A DNA stretch of 51,234 nt from Ruminococcus sp. (lineage in GTDB: Bacteria > Bacillota > Clostridia > Oscillospirales > Acutalibacteraceae), in contig JAFRBX010000012.1 of assembly GCA_017404665.1 (NCBI GenBank), positions 1-51,234 of the forward strand, given 5' to 3'. The position numbers were made by a program, and so were the translations under genes. Positions within the stretch are counted from its first letter, which is position 1; each line of letters begins with the position of its first letter. The notes below the pieces were generated by a model. The model did not search any database and was not told where the DNA came from. It was given only the letters and a program-made list of their open reading frames with translations. Below are positions 31,785 to 38,554 of the stretch, piece by piece.

Positions 31785-31826
31785 GTTAAGATTGCCGCAG
31801 CTCCCAAAGGAGCTGTGCAATGACAA
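31785..31826. repeat. Palindromic repeat, family A copy 6
   Basis: GTTAAGATTGCCGC and TGTGCAATGACAA ends with an inner AGCTCC-caaa-GGAGCT stem, inside the leader of the PAP2 gene and 20 nt before its start codon. Confidence 0.8.
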
Positions 31827-31846
31827 TTGATAAAACGGAGCGAAGT

Positions 31847-32389
31847 ATGTTTCAAAAACTGCGACAGATGGACGAGCGCGTCGTCAAGCGCATGTCCGCG
31901 ATACACCGCCCCGTACTGGACAGGGTGATGGTGCTGTTTACCTATGCGGGTACGGGAGCGTTCGTCTGGTGGATCGCCTTTGTGATCCCGATGCTGATCA
32001 CCCGCCGCTTCAGGGAAACCAGCGCGATCATGACCGCCGCCTTAGGGATCAACTATCTGCTCGGCGAGATCATCATCAAAAAATCGGTCGGCCGCGATCG
32101 ACCCTCCGCACGGATATCGGACGAAGACATGAAGATCAATAAGCCCAAGGACCATTCCTTTCCCTCGGGACACAGCGCATCCTCCTTCTGCGCCTTTACG
32201 GTGACGGCATGGTGCTGCCCGCTCTGGATCTGGCTTCCGGCGCTGGCGCTGGCGGGCACCATCGCGTTTTCGCGCATGTATCTGAGAGTACACTACCTGA
32301 CGGACGTCATGGGCGGTATCGTGCTGGGCGTGCTTGACGGCAGTCTCGTTACGCTGGTATTCCGGTTATTCATATTCAAACAAAGCTGA
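31847..32389 (+). CDS. PAP2-family membrane phosphatase
   Basis: 180 residues from ATG 31847 (GGAG upstream). The three phosphatase motifs are complete: KKSVGRDRPSAR, PSGHSASS and SRMYLRVHYLTDV, the last with the nucleophilic histidine partner. Five to six membrane segments. Such enzymes dephosphorylate undecaprenyl pyrophosphate or other lipid phosphates at the outer membrane leaflet; undecaprenyl-pyrophosphate recycling would fit the wall-polymer genes in this window, but that is inference. Confidence 0.92.
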   Translation: MFQKLRQMDERVVKRMSAIHRPVLDRVMVLFTYAGTGAFVWWIAFVIPMLITRRFRETSAIMTAALGINYLLGEIIIKKSVGRDRPSARISDEDMKINKPKDHSFPSGHSASSFCAFTVTAWCCPLWIWLPALALAGTIAFSRMYLRVHYLTDVMGGIVLGVLDGSLVTLVFRLFIFKQS

Positions 32390-32862: not shown

Positions 32863-33420
32863 ATGAACAAGAAAACGATCGCTGCATCAGAGGCGGCGGG
32901 AGCTGTCGTGATCTACTGCGCGGCGGTTTTTCTGCACTTTGTATACCCGCTCAGCTCGGGCGCGGCGCTGAGCATCCTGTTCGGCGCGGTCAACGAAAGC
33001 GTCTGGGAGCACACCAAGATCTTTTCCGCCGCGTATATCGGCTGGTCGCTGCTGCAGCTGTGCTGGCTGAAGGTTCGATTCAGGCAATATGTCGCGTCGA
33101 AATGCATCGGTCTGTATACGCTGATGGGGCTGATCATCGGCGTTTTTTACGCTTATACAGCCTTAACGGGTCACAACATCGTCTGGGTCGATGTCCTCTC
33201 TTCCCTGCTGTCGGTGATGCTGGTACAGTGGATGACCTATCGTCTTGAAACAGGTGCTAACCGTCTGGGAGATTACTTCGCACCGGCACTGATGCTGCTG
33301 ATGCTGTACTACCTGATGTTTTTCTCCTTCACGGTTTTCCCGCCGAAGGCGGACCTGTTCCGTGATCCTGTCAGCGGAGGTTACGGGGTGATCGGCCGTA
33401 TCGCCGCGAAAAAGCGCTGA
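32863..33420 (+). CDS. DUF6512-like integral membrane protein
   Basis: 185 residues with five to six hydrophobic segments. The motif FGAVNESVWEHTKIFSAAYI early in the protein is one I associate with the DUF6512 family of gut Clostridia; the function of that family is unknown. It starts after the AT-rich island with GAGGGATG before the ATG. No operon partner. The next 184 nt (33421-33604) hold an AGTGAC-type repeat and AT-rich sequence but no gene. Confidence 0.75.
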   Translation: MNKKTIAASEAAGAVVIYCAAVFLHFVYPLSSGAALSILFGAVNESVWEHTKIFSAAYIGWSLLQLCWLKVRFRQYVASKCIGLYTLMGLIIGVFYAYTALTGHNIVWVDVLSSLLSVMLVQWMTYRLETGANRLGDYFAPALMLLMLYYLMFFSFTVFPPKADLFRDPVSGGYGVIGRIAAKKR

Positions 33421-33604: not shown

Positions 33605-34360
33605 ATGAAAGACAATAGGCAACAACCGTATGAAAACGACGAGCTGCTGATCGGACGCAACCCCATCACCGAAGCGCTCAGCGCGGGACGCTCCATCATC
33701 AAGATCATGATCGCCAAGGGCAGTACGACCGGTGCGGCGGTGGAGATCGCCGCCAAAGCCAAAAAAGCGGGTATCCCCGTGCAGGAGGTCGAACGCAAAA
33801 AGCTCGATTTCATGACGGGCGGCGCTGCGCATCAGGGAGTCGCGGCGCTGTGCGCAGTGAAGGATTACGCGTCCGTAGAGGATATCCTTTTGCTTGCCGA
33901 GAAGCGGGAGGAAGCGCCCTTTATCATTATCCTCGACGAAATCGAGGATCCGCATAACTTAGGCGCGATCATCCGCTCGGCGGAATGTGCGGGTGCGCAC
34001 GGCGTGATCATTAAAAAGCGCCGGTCGGCAGGACTGACCTACACCGCGTACAAGGCGTCGGCAGGCGCGCTGGAATACCTGCCTGTCGCGCGGGTAACCA
34101 ACATCGCCGATACCATCGACGAGCTGAAAAGCCGCAATATCTGGATATACGGAGCCGATATGAACGGCGAGGATTACCGAAAAACCGATTTTTCGGGCGG
34201 GGTCGCGCTGGTAATCGGCAACGAGGGCAAGGGACTCTCGCGCCTTGTCAGAGAAAAATGCGACGTCATCGTTTCGCTGCCGCTCAAAGGCAACATCAAT
34301 TCGCTGAACGCCTCCGTAGCCGCGGGTATCCTGATGTATAAGGTCGCAGAGACCCGATAG
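33605..34360 (+). CDS. rlmB: 23S rRNA 2'-O-methyltransferase RlmB/TrmH family (SPOUT)
   Basis: 251 residues. N-terminal substrate-binding domain (GRNPITEALSAG, HQGVAA) and the SpoU catalytic domain with its three motifs: DPHNLGAIIRSAECAG, ALVIGNEGKGLSRLV and LPLKGNINSLNASVAAGIL, which build the knotted AdoMet site. RlmB methylates G2251 of 23S rRNA; related family members act on other sites, so the exact target is inferred. AGGTG precedes the ATG. The 134-nt gap after it has two small hairpins. Confidence 0.9.
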   Translation: MKDNRQQPYENDELLIGRNPITEALSAGRSIIKIMIAKGSTTGAAVEIAAKAKKAGIPVQEVERKKLDFMTGGAAHQGVAALCAVKDYASVEDILLLAEKREEAPFIIILDEIEDPHNLGAIIRSAECAGAHGVIIKKRRSAGLTYTAYKASAGALEYLPVARVTNIADTIDELKSRNIWIYGADMNGEDYRKTDFSGGVALVIGNEGKGLSRLVREKCDVIVSLPLKGNINSLNASVAAGILMYKVAETR

Positions 34361-34494
34361 GAGCCCCAATATCTACCGCAGCCTCCCGAAACTTGCAGTC
34401 AGACAACCATCATTTCATCACGCATACCGTTTTGCCGTAAAGCGGCAAAGCATCACTGTCACACTCCTGTGTGACCGGAAAGGAGATGAGAGCC

Positions 34495-37191
34495 ATGAGC
34501 TTGTTCCGCAGAGATAAAGACAAGGATAATAACGAACAAAAAGACAAGACCCGGGAGATCAGATTCCGTCGGGAAGACAATCTCCCGCCTGCCGACGAGT
34601 CCGAGGACGACTATACCGATATCAGCGAAGCGGCAGGCGACTCATCCTCAGAGCCTCAAAGCAATAAGATGGAGGAGATCTACTCCACAAGAGATAAACA
34701 GGTCAAATTCCGCCGCCAGGAACCGCTGGAGGAAGAAGCGGCGGCTAAGCGTAAGGAAGCCGCCAAGGACGACCTGATCCGCGGTAAGCTGGAATTCAAC
34801 TCAGCGGAAGACGAGGACGCGCCCGAGGTCAAGCTCGAAGCGGAGTTGGATCCCAACGCCATCGTGTCCGACGAGATCATCGAGGACGTCGTAGACGTCA
34901 AAAAGCTGAGAAATATCTATGTACAGGATATCGACGACATTGACGTGAGCCTCGATCCCATGGAAAGCGTCGAGCAGTATGAAAAGCAGGCGCAGAACAA
35001 AGAGCGCCACGACGCGCGCGCCGCAAAGAAAGCGCCGCAGGAGCCTTATGTACCCTCCGGCGATACCGTTGTGGCAAAGGTGCCTGTCTATCAGCACGAG
35101 GGTCGCGTGGAAAAGCTCTACCTCAAGGCAGGGCGCTTCACGGACGTCGTCGAAAGCGAATATGACGAATACCTCAAATCCACGGACCCGACCATCTCCA
35201 AAAATTACCACACCACCAAGCCGATGGTCAAGCCTCATCAAAGCCTGCTGTATACCCTCAGTCAGGTCGCCGCGCGCCGCCGCAGCGAATCCGAGCAAAA
35301 GCAGAAAAGCAAGGAGATCATGCGCAACAACTTTGATGAGGACGCGCCGAAAACGAAAAAGAAAAAGAAGCGTTCCCGCGTCGGAAAATTCTTCCGTGTG
35401 CTGGGCGCGGTCATCACGTCGGGCTTTACCGACCCGTCCGAGGACGAGCAGGACCGCGCGATGGCATACAACTCCCGCGAGGATGAAAACTACATACGAG
35501 AAAAAACGAACGGGAACATCAAGCGTCAGGTAATCCATCTGACGCTCTATCTCCTGATCGCCGCCGCAATCCTCGCGCTAGTCATCTGGGAGCGCGGCTT
35601 CGGCGCCGCGGCTGTCGCCGCGAGAGGCGCGGGCGCCGCATTCACCTGCTGCGCACTCAATCTGATCCTGACGGTCGCGCTGGCTGTCGTCGGGCGGCAC
35701 ACTCTGATCGACGGTCTCAAGCCGCTGAGGCACATTAAATCCAACTGCGGCACGGTACTCTCGCTCGCGTATCTCGCGTGTCTTCTTCAGGGACTCGTAT
35801 CGCTGTTCACCTGCACCTCATTCGTCGGCAGCGACCATCACCTGTACAGCTTCATCGTCGCCTTTGCGCTGGCGCTGAGCACGCTGGGCAGGCTGATGAT
35901 GGCGTTAAGGGTCAAGAGCAACCTGAATTTTATCAGCGACCGCTCCCCCGCATACGCGGCTAAAATTTACGATGACGAGGAATCTGCACGGCGTATGGTC
36001 AGCGGCACCACAACCTCAAAGGGGGTAATCGCCTACCAGCATGTCACCCGTTTCCTCTCTGATTTTCTGAAAATATCCTACGCGCCCGACCCCAGCGAGG
36101 AGCTCAGCGGCAAGATGGCGCCGATCGCCGTCATCAGCGCGCTGTTCGTCACGATCCTGTACTCGATCATCTTCAAGAGCGTGCAGGGCGCCGTATCGGC
36201 GCTGACGGTCATGCTGTGTGTCGGCATTCCCTTCACGGGCATGCTCGCGGGCAATCTGCCGCTGCTGCTTTTCAGCCGCAGGATGCTGAAAGAAGACGCC
36301 ATGATCGCGGGTTATCCGTCGGTGCGCCAGTTCTGCGATACCTCCGCCGTCATGATGAGCGCGTGCGACCTCTTCCCCTCGGGCTGCGTCACCGTCAAGG
36401 AGCTGCTGCCCCTGCAGCAATATCGCGTCAGCGAGAACCTTTTGATGGCGGCGGCGGTTCTGCGCGAGGCGCAGTCGCCCATCGCCCCCGCCTTTGATGA
36501 GCTGGTCATGGAAAACAACAACGTCCTGCCCGCTGTCGAAAGTGTGATGTTCGAGGACAAAAGCGGCGTTGTCGGCTGGATCAATAAAGAGCGCGTGCTC
36601 GTCGGCAACATGAAGCTGATGAACCGCTACCATATCACCATCCCGCCCGAGGTCATTTCCATGAAGCGCAAGAACAGCCGGCTTGAAACAGCCTATGTCG
36701 CGGTTGCCGGACAGGCTGTCGCGGTGCTGGGGCTGTCCTATGAAGCCCACAAGACAACGAAGGAACAGATCCGTCAAGCGGAGCGCAGCGGGCTGGCGCT
36801 GATCGTCAGCACCACCGACGCGAATATCACGGCGGAGCTGATCGCCGACCGCTATGAGGTCTTCTTCCGTTCGGTCAAGGTCACTGCTCCGGGCTACTCC
36901 AACGTCATCGACGAGGCAACCGGCAAGGTCGAGGAAACCTCCCGCGCCTATGTCGCCACCCGCGGCCGCATCGGCTCGCTGGCGCGCGCCGTCGGCGGCT
37001 GTATCGGAATCAAGTCCAACATCAGTCTCGGCATCATGATCGAGATCTTCGGCATGATATTGGGCATCCTGCTGTGTGCGACGCTGGCGCTGTACGCATC
37101 CGTCGCGCGGCTGTCCATCGTGGAAATGATGATCTACATCGGCTTTTGGGTGATCGCGACGATCGTCGCCGAGCTGATCAAGAGACCGTAA
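34495..37191 (+). CDS. Degenerate P1B-type ATPase-like membrane protein (predicted pseudoenzyme)
   Basis: 898 residues from ATG 34495 (AGGAG 9 nt upstream; ATG 34486 possible). Residues 1-340 are charged and disordered-looking, ending in a KTKKKKKRSR patch. Then eight membrane segments in P1B order: four at about 345-460, two at about 540-595, two at about 845-895. Where the metal-site CPC should be is CVGIP; where the phosphorylation motif DKTGTLT should be is DLFPSGCVT (Asp625); the TGD hinge reads TTD (775); the GDGxND motif is absent; the short A-like domain has no TGE. Yet N-domain-like traces remain (RVLVGNMKLMNRY at 701-713, AVAVLGLSYEAHKTTKEQI). This reads as an ancestral metal pump that has lost catalysis and gained a long cytosolic head. 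Function unknown, possibly sensing or scaffolding. Confidence 0.7.
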   Translation: MSLFRRDKDKDNNEQKDKTREIRFRREDNLPPADESEDDYTDISEAAGDSSSEPQSNKMEEIYSTRDKQVKFRRQEPLEEEAAAKRKEAAKDDLIRGKLEFNSAEDEDAPEVKLEAELDPNAIVSDEIIEDVVDVKKLRNIYVQDIDDIDVSLDPMESVEQYEKQAQNKERHDARAAKKAPQEPYVPSGDTVVAKVPVYQHEGRVEKLYLKAGRFTDVVESEYDEYLKSTDPTISKNYHTTKPMVKPHQSLLYTLSQVAARRRSESEQKQKSKEIMRNNFDEDAPKTKKKKKRSRVGKFFRVLGAVITSGFTDPSEDEQDRAMAYNSREDENYIREKTNGNIKRQVIHLTLYLLIAAAILALVIWERGFGAAAVAARGAGAAFTCCALNLILTVALAVVGRHTLIDGLKPLRHIKSNCGTVLSLAYLACLLQGLVSLFTCTSFVGSDHHLYSFIVAFALALSTLGRLMMALRVKSNLNFISDRSPAYAAKIYDDEESARRMVSGTTTSKGVIAYQHVTRFLSDFLKISYAPDPSEELSGKMAPIAVISALFVTILYSIIFKSVQGAVSALTVMLCVGIPFTGMLAGNLPLLLFSRRMLKEDAMIAGYPSVRQFCDTSAVMMSACDLFPSGCVTVKELLPLQQYRVSENLLMAAAVLREAQSPIAPAFDELVMENNNVLPAVESVMFEDKSGVVGWINKERVLVGNMKLMNRYHITIPPEVISMKRKNSRLETAYVAVAGQAVAVLGLSYEAHKTTKEQIRQAERSGLALIVSTTDANITAELIADRYEVFFRSVKVTAPGYSNVIDEATGKVEETSRAYVATRGRIGSLARAVGGCIGIKSNISLGIMIEIFGMILGILLCATLALYASVARLSIVEMMIYIGFWVIATIVAELIKRP

Positions 37192-37360: not shown

Positions 37361-38011
37361 ATGCTGATTGCACCATCCCTTTTATCCTGTGATTTTTCCG
37401 TCTTTCGCGACGAGATCATCCGCGTCGATCAGGCAGGCGCGGACATCATGCATCTGGACGTCATGGACGGGCACTTTGTCCCGAACCTCACCTTCGGCGC
37501 GCCGGTCATCAAAAAGTTGAGATCGGCGACCGAAAAGCCCTTTGACGTGCACCTGATGATCAGCGAGCCGCACCGCTATGCGGGTGATTTTGCCGACGCG
37601 GGCGCGGACATCATCTCTTTCCACACCGAAAGCGACAGCGATATCGACGAGACCCTGAAGCTGATCGAAGCTCGCGGCGTCAAGCCCGCCCTCGCGATTA
37701 AGCCGGGCACCTCGCCCGCGGTCGTCCTGCCGTATCTTGACAGGCTGTACATGGTGCTGGTGATGACGGTGGAGCCGGGCTTCGGCGGTCAGAGCTTCAT
37801 GCCGGATATGATGGACAAGGTCACGTATTTGCGCAAAGAGATCGCCCGACGCGGACTTGATACGCTGATCGAGGTCGACGGCGGTATCGCGAAGGATACC
37901 ATCGCAACAGCAGCAAATGCAGGCGTGGATATCTGTGTCGCGGGGACGGCGGTGTTCGGCGCACCGGATGCGAAAGAAGCTATTGACGAACTCAGAGCGT
38001 TATGTGAATAA
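37361..38011 (+). CDS. rpe: Ribulose-phosphate 3-epimerase
   Basis: 216 residues, TIM-barrel. All family motifs are present: IAPSLLSCDF at the start, HLDVMDGHFVPNLTFG, FDVHLMI, MTVEPGFGGQSFMP and IEVDGGI, with the two catalytic aspartates in LDVMDG and EVDGG. Interconverts ribulose-5-phosphate and xylulose-5-phosphate in the pentose phosphate pathway. AAAAGGAG lies 11 nt upstream. In many Firmicutes rpe sits near rsgA and prkC; that context is absent here. Confidence 0.96.
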   Translation: MLIAPSLLSCDFSVFRDEIIRVDQAGADIMHLDVMDGHFVPNLTFGAPVIKKLRSATEKPFDVHLMISEPHRYAGDFADAGADIISFHTESDSDIDETLKLIEARGVKPALAIKPGTSPAVVLPYLDRLYMVLVMTVEPGFGGQSFMPDMMDKVTYLRKEIARRGLDTLIEVDGGIAKDTIATAANAGVDICVAGTAVFGAPDAKEAIDELRALCE

Positions 38012-38071: not shown

Positions 38072-38554
38072 TTATTCGCTTTCGATGACGTTGCCGTCGG
38101 CGTCGTACTTGGTTCTGTAGGTATTGCCGTCATCACCGAGCTCAGTCACGATGACAAAGGTGATGTTGCCTTGCGCATCCAGCTCGGTACGCTTGGTTTC
38201 AAGCCCGTCCTCGTTGCGCTCATACTGCACCTGAGAGGTGATATCACCCTGCGCGTTATAGCGGATATCCTTAATGATAAAGCCGTTCTCATCATATTCG
38301 TGACCGATCGAGCCCTGCAGGTTACCGAGCGAATCATAGGTGTAGTCGCGGGTGATCTGACCTTCTTCGTTTTTCTCAAACTTGGAATAGCCGGTGACGC
38401 TGCCGTCGCCGTTCTGTCCGATCGGGGTAAGATCATCGGGGATGGAGGACGCAGCGGTCGGGGCTTCTGTGCTCTCATCCTTTTTGCAGCCGGTCAGAGC
38501 GATCGCGGAAAACATGAGCAATAAAACAAGCAATAATGCGATAATATGTTTCAT
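38072..38554 (-). CDS. Lipoprotein with YD-repeat-like units
   Basis: 160 residues. Signal peptide and lipobox LTGC (Cys23). After a short linker, about five imperfect units of the form Y-(D/N)-x-x-G-(N/D) follow (YDSLGNLQG, YDENGFIIKD, YNAQGDITSQ, LDAQGNITF, YDADGNVIE), like the YD repeats of RHS proteins, here as a short beta-sheet stack. Surface-anchored; ligand unknown. Controlled by a clear promoter overlapped by a 9-bp dyad (38580-38622). AGGAGA precedes the ATG. Confidence 0.82.
   Translation of the reverse strand: MKHIIALLLVLLLMFSAIALTGCKKDESTEAPTAASSIPDDLTPIGQNGDGSVTGYSKFEKNEEGQITRDYTYDSLGNLQGSIGHEYDENGFIIKDIRYNAQGDITSQVQYERNEDGLETKRTELDAQGNITFVIVTELGDDGNTYRTKYDADGNVIESE

Follow-up and report, generated by a model that had tools for sequence, protein, structure and literature searches.

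A putative P1B-derived pseudo-ATPase encoded directly behind rlmB in Ruminococcus sp. and across its order

The sequence analyzed here, referred to as the window, is the whole 51,234-nucleotide stretch of Ruminococcus sp. contig JAFRBX010000012.1. The gene under study and its neighbours are listed in Table 1. Its reading frame is open on the plus strand as a single ORF from position 34471 (GTG) or 34495 (ATG) to 37191, and the start chosen in the preliminary description, the ATG at 34495, is sound because an AAGGAG sequence sits approximately 10 nt upstream. A promoter scan around the gene found 4 promoters with 3.8 expected, and a PADLOC scan for defence systems gave no match at E ≤ 0.1. The first 300 residues of the encoded protein contain 57 Lys or Arg, 67 Asp or Glu, and no Cys. 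Hydrophobic segments were located by a Kyte-Doolittle scan and not by a trained predictor, with peaks that start at residues 346, 381, 420 and 453, at 542 and 566, and at 843 and 873. This is the 4+2+2 membrane plan of P1B-type ATPases, and since the profile alignment described below agrees with it, the eight-segment spacing that had been read from the letters alone was confirmed.

Table 1. Features of the pseudo-ATPase gene and its surroundings (positions in the window)
Feature	Position	Strand	Basis or remark
PAP2 phosphatase gene	31820-32389		Upstream of rlmB; cluster members in 8/27 loci
DUF6512 membrane protein gene	32863-33420		Upstream of rlmB; cluster members in 12/27 loci
rlmB-type 23S rRNA 2'-O-methyltransferase gene (SpoU methylase and substrate-binding domain)	33605..34360	+	Fixed upstream neighbour of the pseudo-ATPase gene
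Ribosome-binding region, AAGGAG about 10 nt 5' of the ATG	34478..34494	+	Read in the sequence
Pseudo-ATPase gene, 898 codons and stop	34495..37191	+	ORF listing, profile alignment
Residues 1-345, charged head, predicted cytosolic, no HMA domain	34495..35529	+	Pfam, composition, relatives
Residues 346-471, four hydrophobic segments (346-364, 381-399, 420-438, 453-471) corresponding to MA, MB, M1 and M2	35530..35907	+	Alignment with P1B pumps, hydropathy
Residues 472-541, actuator domain remnant; about 66 residues including TGE missing	35908..36117	+	Alignment, spacing
Residues 542-584, M3 and M4	36118..36246	+	Alignment, hydropathy
I578-P579-F580, where the CPC metal site belongs	36226..36234	+	Alignment of 86 members
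S622-ACDLF-P628, where DKTGTLT belongs	36358..36378	+	Alignment
Residues 641-750, N-domain remnant	36415..36744	+	Alignment
T773-T-D775-A-N777-I-T779, where the TGDN loop belongs	36811..36831	+	Alignment
Residues 819/820, approximate site of the loss of about 35 residues including GDGxND	36949..36954	+	Alignment, spacing
Residues 843-891, M5 and M6 (peaks 843-861, 873-891)	37021..37167	+	Hydropathy, conservation
rpe, ribulose-phosphate 3-epimerase gene	37361..38011	+	Next gene in 18/27 loci, not conserved beyond

Profile comparison indicates that the window protein descends from P1B metal pumps. Against a profile of ten canonical P1B proteins (A4), a broad family profile of 29 sequences (A2), built with loci from 20 further family groups, was matched by hhalign at 99.9% (E 5.8e-32), the 536 aligned columns running from the opening helix to the final one, and an alignment of 24 core sequences alone (A1) was matched at 99.4% (E 1.9e-21). 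In the same program, ABC exporters reached 0.5% (E 0.12), and two other P-type ATPases of the window's genome, assumed to be P2-type and each entered twice in a small alignment, reached 95.6% (E 1.2e-8). Because of these two controls, the match is one to P-type ATPases, and best to the P1B group, and common ancestry extends over the full P1B pump core. The P1B origin proposed in the preliminary description was thus upheld, the family-like traces that it had pointed out fall at their proper places in canonical P1B proteins, and neither a lack of P-type similarity nor unrelated homologues over residues 600-840 was encountered at the sequence level. Single searches with the window protein gave a match to LpCopA (3rfu) at E 1.2e-9 and a match to the heavy-metal P-type ATPase model TIGR01525 at residues 535-789 (E 9.2e-12), for which the score of 44.6 bits is far under the 346-bit cut-off. 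The Pfam scan of this protein yielded nothing over cut-off, E1-E2_ATPase scoring 8 bits where 28.1 are required, so the scores of both curated families lie below their thresholds.

To describe the motifs, 86 family members were counted against 26 canonical rows. The members differ from one another within the last 200 residues but are not independent, and one of them (L081) is the fragment past the in-frame TGA of genome G221; two of the canonical rows are cuts of the CopA from the window's own genome. DKTGT is present in none of the 86 members and in all 26 canonical rows, and at the column of the phosphorylated Asp the window has Ser, with D in 55 members, S in 9, N in 6, and other residues in the rest. 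The loss of this motif had been recognized correctly, but its assignment to DLFPSGCVT was not: the aligned heptad is S622-A-C-D-L-F-P628, and the Asp of DLFP stands three residues off. Within the heptad, P628 is found in 77 members and F or Y at position 627 in 84. Similarly, Cys-Pro-Cys is gone from its columns in all 86 members, which hold I/V/A-P-F/V and others, as had been claimed, but the proposed replacement CVGIP straddles the aligned triplet I578-P579-F580, in which the M4 proline P579 is kept (73/86). The change of TGD to TTD, in contrast, was located as described, at T773-T-D775; across the members this site has T in 63, D (D775) in 82, and no G, with N777 in 70. As for the nucleotide site, the SEHP His is found in no member and in 25 of 26 canonical rows, and the second G of GxG is present in all 86 and the first in 32. 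G691 and G704 of the N-domain remnant are invariant (86/86).

Two further motifs are absent through deletion. The distance from M2 to M3 is 87 residues in the 86 members and 153 in the 26 canonical rows, which corresponds to the loss of approximately 66 actuator residues and bears out the earlier remark that TGE is missing; the letters TGE, counted wherever they fall in the protein, occur in 15 members. The median distance from T.D to M5 is 71 residues in the 86 members and 106 in 25 canonical rows, and GDG.ND, the Mg-binding loop, is present in no member and in all 26 canonical rows. This loop was rightly called gone; it was deleted with approximately 35 residues and is not an altered motif. 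These sizes were taken from hydropathy spacing because hmmalign misplaced some canonical rows outside the motifs. Two other spacings are unchanged compared to the pumps, with medians of 42 residues from the CPC proline to the phosphorylated Asp and 152 from this Asp to TGD, and because two shortened spacings stand beside two unchanged ones, the loss is specific. Judged by alignment and spacing, the protein has lost the core of the actuator domain, with its TGE, together with the end of the P domain that binds Mg, and the N domain keeps its size.

The protein therefore resembles the P1B Cu+-ATPases (CopA; LpCopA 3rfu; TIGR01525) in its 4+2+2 helices, its M4 proline, the order of its N and P domains, and two spacings. 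In contrast to them, its family lacks CPC, DKTGT, TGE, TGD and GDGxND at the proper sites, and the window protein has two deletions, a charged head, no HMA domain, and a TIGR01525 score under the cut-off. It is a P1B protein by descent and not by function, as nearly every defining catalytic feature that was looked for is missing from the alignment. A protein that lacks the Mg-binding loop, TGE, KTGT and the N-domain His cannot credibly go through a Post-Albers cycle, and because the phosphorylation, Mg-binding and dephosphorylation signatures are lost, ATP-driven pumping is very unlikely; we are highly confident that the window protein performs no ATP-driven transport. The preliminary description had likewise held that no P-type cycle is possible, and the loss of DKTGT and GDGxND in 86 of 86 members across the order, with two family-wide deletions, agrees with this view. 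That the protein instead serves as a binding platform or receptor is the reading that we consider reasonably probable, and the other readings were weighed against it as follows.

The genomic context offers one constant feature. All 47 loci examined, drawn from 21 family groups, have rlmB as the immediately preceding gene in the same orientation (the window, L001-L006, L047-L066 and L097-L116; five confirmed by a separate check of the interval). The gap to the pseudo-ATPase gene has a median of 24 nt (42 loci) and ranges from -29 to 189, so that some pairs overlap, and among the loci of the order that were examined no rlmB was found with a different gene behind it. Ten sampled flanking genes of other groups were mostly different (TsaD, RicT, DnaX, EF-G, MetG, acetolactate synthase, and others), and because of this only rlmB is regarded as fixed; a conserved wider operon was rejected, as the flanking genes vary between groups. 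Because the pair stays together while the other neighbours change, rlmB and the pseudo-ATPase gene are probably transcribed as one mRNA. Their adjacency does not prove a common function. Among the 18 genomes of the order that lack the pseudo-ATPase gene, rlmB was found in 3 (1 of five good genomes, searched at E ≤ 1e-40, and 2 of thirteen poor ones, at E ≤ 1e-30) and gave no match in the other 15; in all three the contig stops 0.2-0.5 kb past rlmB. In a 60-genome class sample, rlmB was found in 50 of the 50 good genomes. The four otherwise good genomes that lack both genes reflect either joint loss or an assembly gap, and since the genes are adjacent, assembly gaps alone could account for their shared absence. 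Two small genes near the pair were also observed. A short conserved gene of approximately 87 aa, of the 'MIRGINHQVIEI' type (L047:1769-2044), precedes rlmB in 5 of 27 loci and has no Pfam match, and a small lipoprotein-like gene on the minus strand of the window (38075-38554) has a weak RHS-repeat match (22.7 bits, cut-off 22).

This context bears on the possibility that the dead copy regulates or dampens a working copper pump by binding canonical CopA or the metallochaperone of that pump. In each of the 20 relatives searched, a P1B ATPase scoring above the family cut-off is also encoded; the window's genome, one of the 20, has two, and the P1B ancestry makes hetero-association conceivable. 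However, the protein lacks both Cys-Pro-Cys and an HMA domain, residues 1-300 of its head are free of Cys, and the fixed neighbour is rlmB and not a copper gene. We consider such a regulator unlikely, although it is the strongest of the alternatives.

Mean conservation is highest in P1 (1.88) and N (1.82), followed by M5-M6 (1.41), M3-M4 (1.38), and TM1-4, which is the lowest (1.28). The most conserved single column is nevertheless W885 in the last helix (75 of 86 members), and G407, P579 and P589 also rank high among the membrane columns. Because W885, G407 and P579 are so highly conserved, the helices cannot be regarded simply as anchors throughout. These columns, together with the retained eight-helix plan and M4 proline, would be consistent with a passive channel or carrier that uses the old P1B membrane domain and is not ATP-driven. 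The low average conservation of the membrane stretches compared to P1 and N and the loss of the metal-site cysteines argue against it, and we regard this alternative as distinctly improbable.

The distribution of the gene was examined at the levels of family, order and class. In the window's family, 187 of 200 genomes match at E ≤ 1e-3 in a protein search, a number that may include some canonical pumps, and six named MAG loci that are 65-85% identical are labelled Ruminococcus (five) or Clostridia bacterium (one). Across 245 genomes of the order, 224 match the A1 profile at E ≤ 1e-10 and 227 match A2 at E ≤ 1e-45, including 180 of the 185 of good quality; 226 carriers have a single match, and G261 has two. 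Of 245 genomes sampled from the class, nine belong to the order and match at full length with 293-687 bits, and the 236 outside the order gave no full-length match, the best reaching 132 bits over model positions 198-468 only. The three best out-of-order matches carry DKTGT, as do the copies of f43, a group in another order of the class, and the remainder are assumed to be canonical by coverage and score. Within the sampled class, profile matches thus place the pseudo-ATPase family in one order only.

The head varies in length. The stretch before the model ranges from 28 (L108) to 1125 residues, with a median of 376.5 including the L081 fragment, all based on unrefined ORF starts. Seven proteins scanned for extra domains in the longest heads gave none over the Pfam cut-off, and in the window's family the head ends with a semi-conserved stretch before the first helix. 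In the f10 group, which includes L108 (genome G265), the ORFs are 541-596 aa and the head is nearly absent; several f10 genomes also lack SpoIVA.

Of the 245 genomes of the order, 215 have SpoIVA, which makes most carriers likely spore formers and would fit a sporulation or spore-envelope protein. However, 21 of the 30 SpoIVA-negative genomes (ten of the 30 inferred from gaps in the list of positives) carry the pseudo-ATPase gene, as do 9 of 10 among those at least 90% complete, with the lack of SpoIVA being a proxy only, and the neighbours are not sporulation genes. Sporulation was rejected as a general explanation of the distribution, and even as a narrower role it appears very improbable.

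Purifying selection acts on the core of the protein. The dN/dS values of the window against six relatives are 0.118-0.179 and differ little between the P/N loop and the membrane part, which supports the earlier view of an intact 898-codon gene that is not decaying. Retention of the Asp in the phosphorylation column and of the second Asp, in T.D, exceeds what drift alone would suggest and counts against the pseudo-ATPase reading. New signatures have formed at the old sites, namely [DE][LIV][FY]P where DKTGTLT belongs, T-x-D-x-N-[IV]-[TS] where TGDN belongs, and a Trp after the N-domain glycine; a further conserved pattern is YED..G..GW...R.L.GN. The DKTGT and TGD loops are adjacent in known P-type structures, and the residues conserved here would therefore form the wall of the former active site.

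Such conservation might also be expected of an enzyme with altered chemistry in which the retained Asp and T-x-D still accept phosphate. In its favor are the Asp in the nucleophile column (39/52 in the window's family, 16/34 elsewhere) and the T.D Asp, kept by 82 of the 86 members. However, the nucleophile column holds S, N or G in the window's own clade, and S, G, N or K in the window and its eight nearest relatives but one (L013); moreover, the Mg-binding segment is deleted in all 86 members and the SEHP His is absent. An active phosphate-accepting enzyme is therefore judged highly improbable, slightly more so than a role in sporulation. A decaying gene or sequencing artefact, to which the lost catalytic motifs and the in-frame TGA of one relative (G221) might point, was rejected as practically negligible, since the frame is open in nearly all listed members and the gene is retained across the order under low dN/dS. 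The TGA itself (L098:4164-6560; G221:C38) splits that gene into ORFs of 363 and 430 residues and may be an assembly error, decay or recoding.

The reading that we favor, with somewhat better than even confidence, is that of a membrane-anchored, P1B-derived pseudo-ATPase whose cytosolic N/P module would act as a binding platform co-expressed with RlmB. The eight helices would anchor the protein in the membrane, and the old P/N module would bind a protein or small ligand. The binding surface would lie around the former active site, where [DE]-[LIV]-[FY]-P may face T-x-D-x-N-[IV]-[TS], with YED..G..GW...R.L.GN as a further part, and the disordered head may serve as a variable tether. Since rlmB alone is constant among the neighbours, RlmB or the ribosome would be the first candidate partner, and a role in ribosome maturation or membrane-side translation may be offered as a first functional guess. 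A functional link with RlmB or ribosomes is only a tentative suggestion, held with much less confidence than the binding platform. The sensor, scaffold or regulator put forward in the preliminary description is likewise no more than a suggested role.

The origin of the gene may be connected with the f43 group. In 5 of 14 f43 rlmB loci (L161, L176, L187, L188 and L192; full loci L179, L180, L184 and L185), a canonical copA lies directly behind rlmB, and all five motifs are intact in the four full-length copies. In G456 of this group, copA is succeeded by an ACT-domain gene and then by DUF711, and in the nine loci without copA an ORF of 89-90 aa, the size of the ACT gene, lies directly behind rlmB in seven. 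Because most of the loci lack copA and an ORF of ACT size follows rlmB, insertion within f43 is as likely as descent in place; the arrangement might be ancestral, or an unrelated insertion or coincidence. Among 28 out-of-order loci that were fetched, a P1B ORF beside rlmB was seen only in two, both from f43. In a tree of 42 rows made by a quick method, the pseudo-ATPases group together at 100 on long branches and are not placed among any canonical group, and because of these long branches the tree does not decide the origin. That a copA gene behind rlmB was rebuilt in place into an order-specific membrane receptor for the ribosome or RlmB thus seems unlikely. If it were true, the phosphorylation pocket of an ion pump would now serve translation at the membrane.

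Pseudoenzymes are well known among kinases and proteases. The class is thus not new, and its P-type, bacterial and order-wide form is new as far as the open-access literature shows. No title pointing to this family was found in the open-access full text, which leaves subscription journals and preprints mostly outside, and the sole P-type pseudoenzyme example found there was human TMEM94 (ERMA), the status of which is disputed. TMEM94 has P-type-like A, P and N domains and a membrane plan of this kind and lacks TGES, and the cryo-EM letter reports that the proposed phosphorylation site held no nucleotide and that Post-Albers conformations were not seen (PMC12134183). It is a eukaryotic ten-helix ER protein that is structurally most like SPCA (PMC12134183), and another paper argues that it is an active Mg2+ ATPase (PMC13322241). 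TMEM94 may be considered the nearest analogue found, with a likeness by description and not by sequence or structure comparison.

A dead P1B ATPase that is kept in 227 of 245 genomes of an order would provide a natural case in which the P-type scaffold is used without its cycle. Such proteins can be taken for metal pumps in annotation, and the fixed rlmB neighbour gives a concrete, testable partner.
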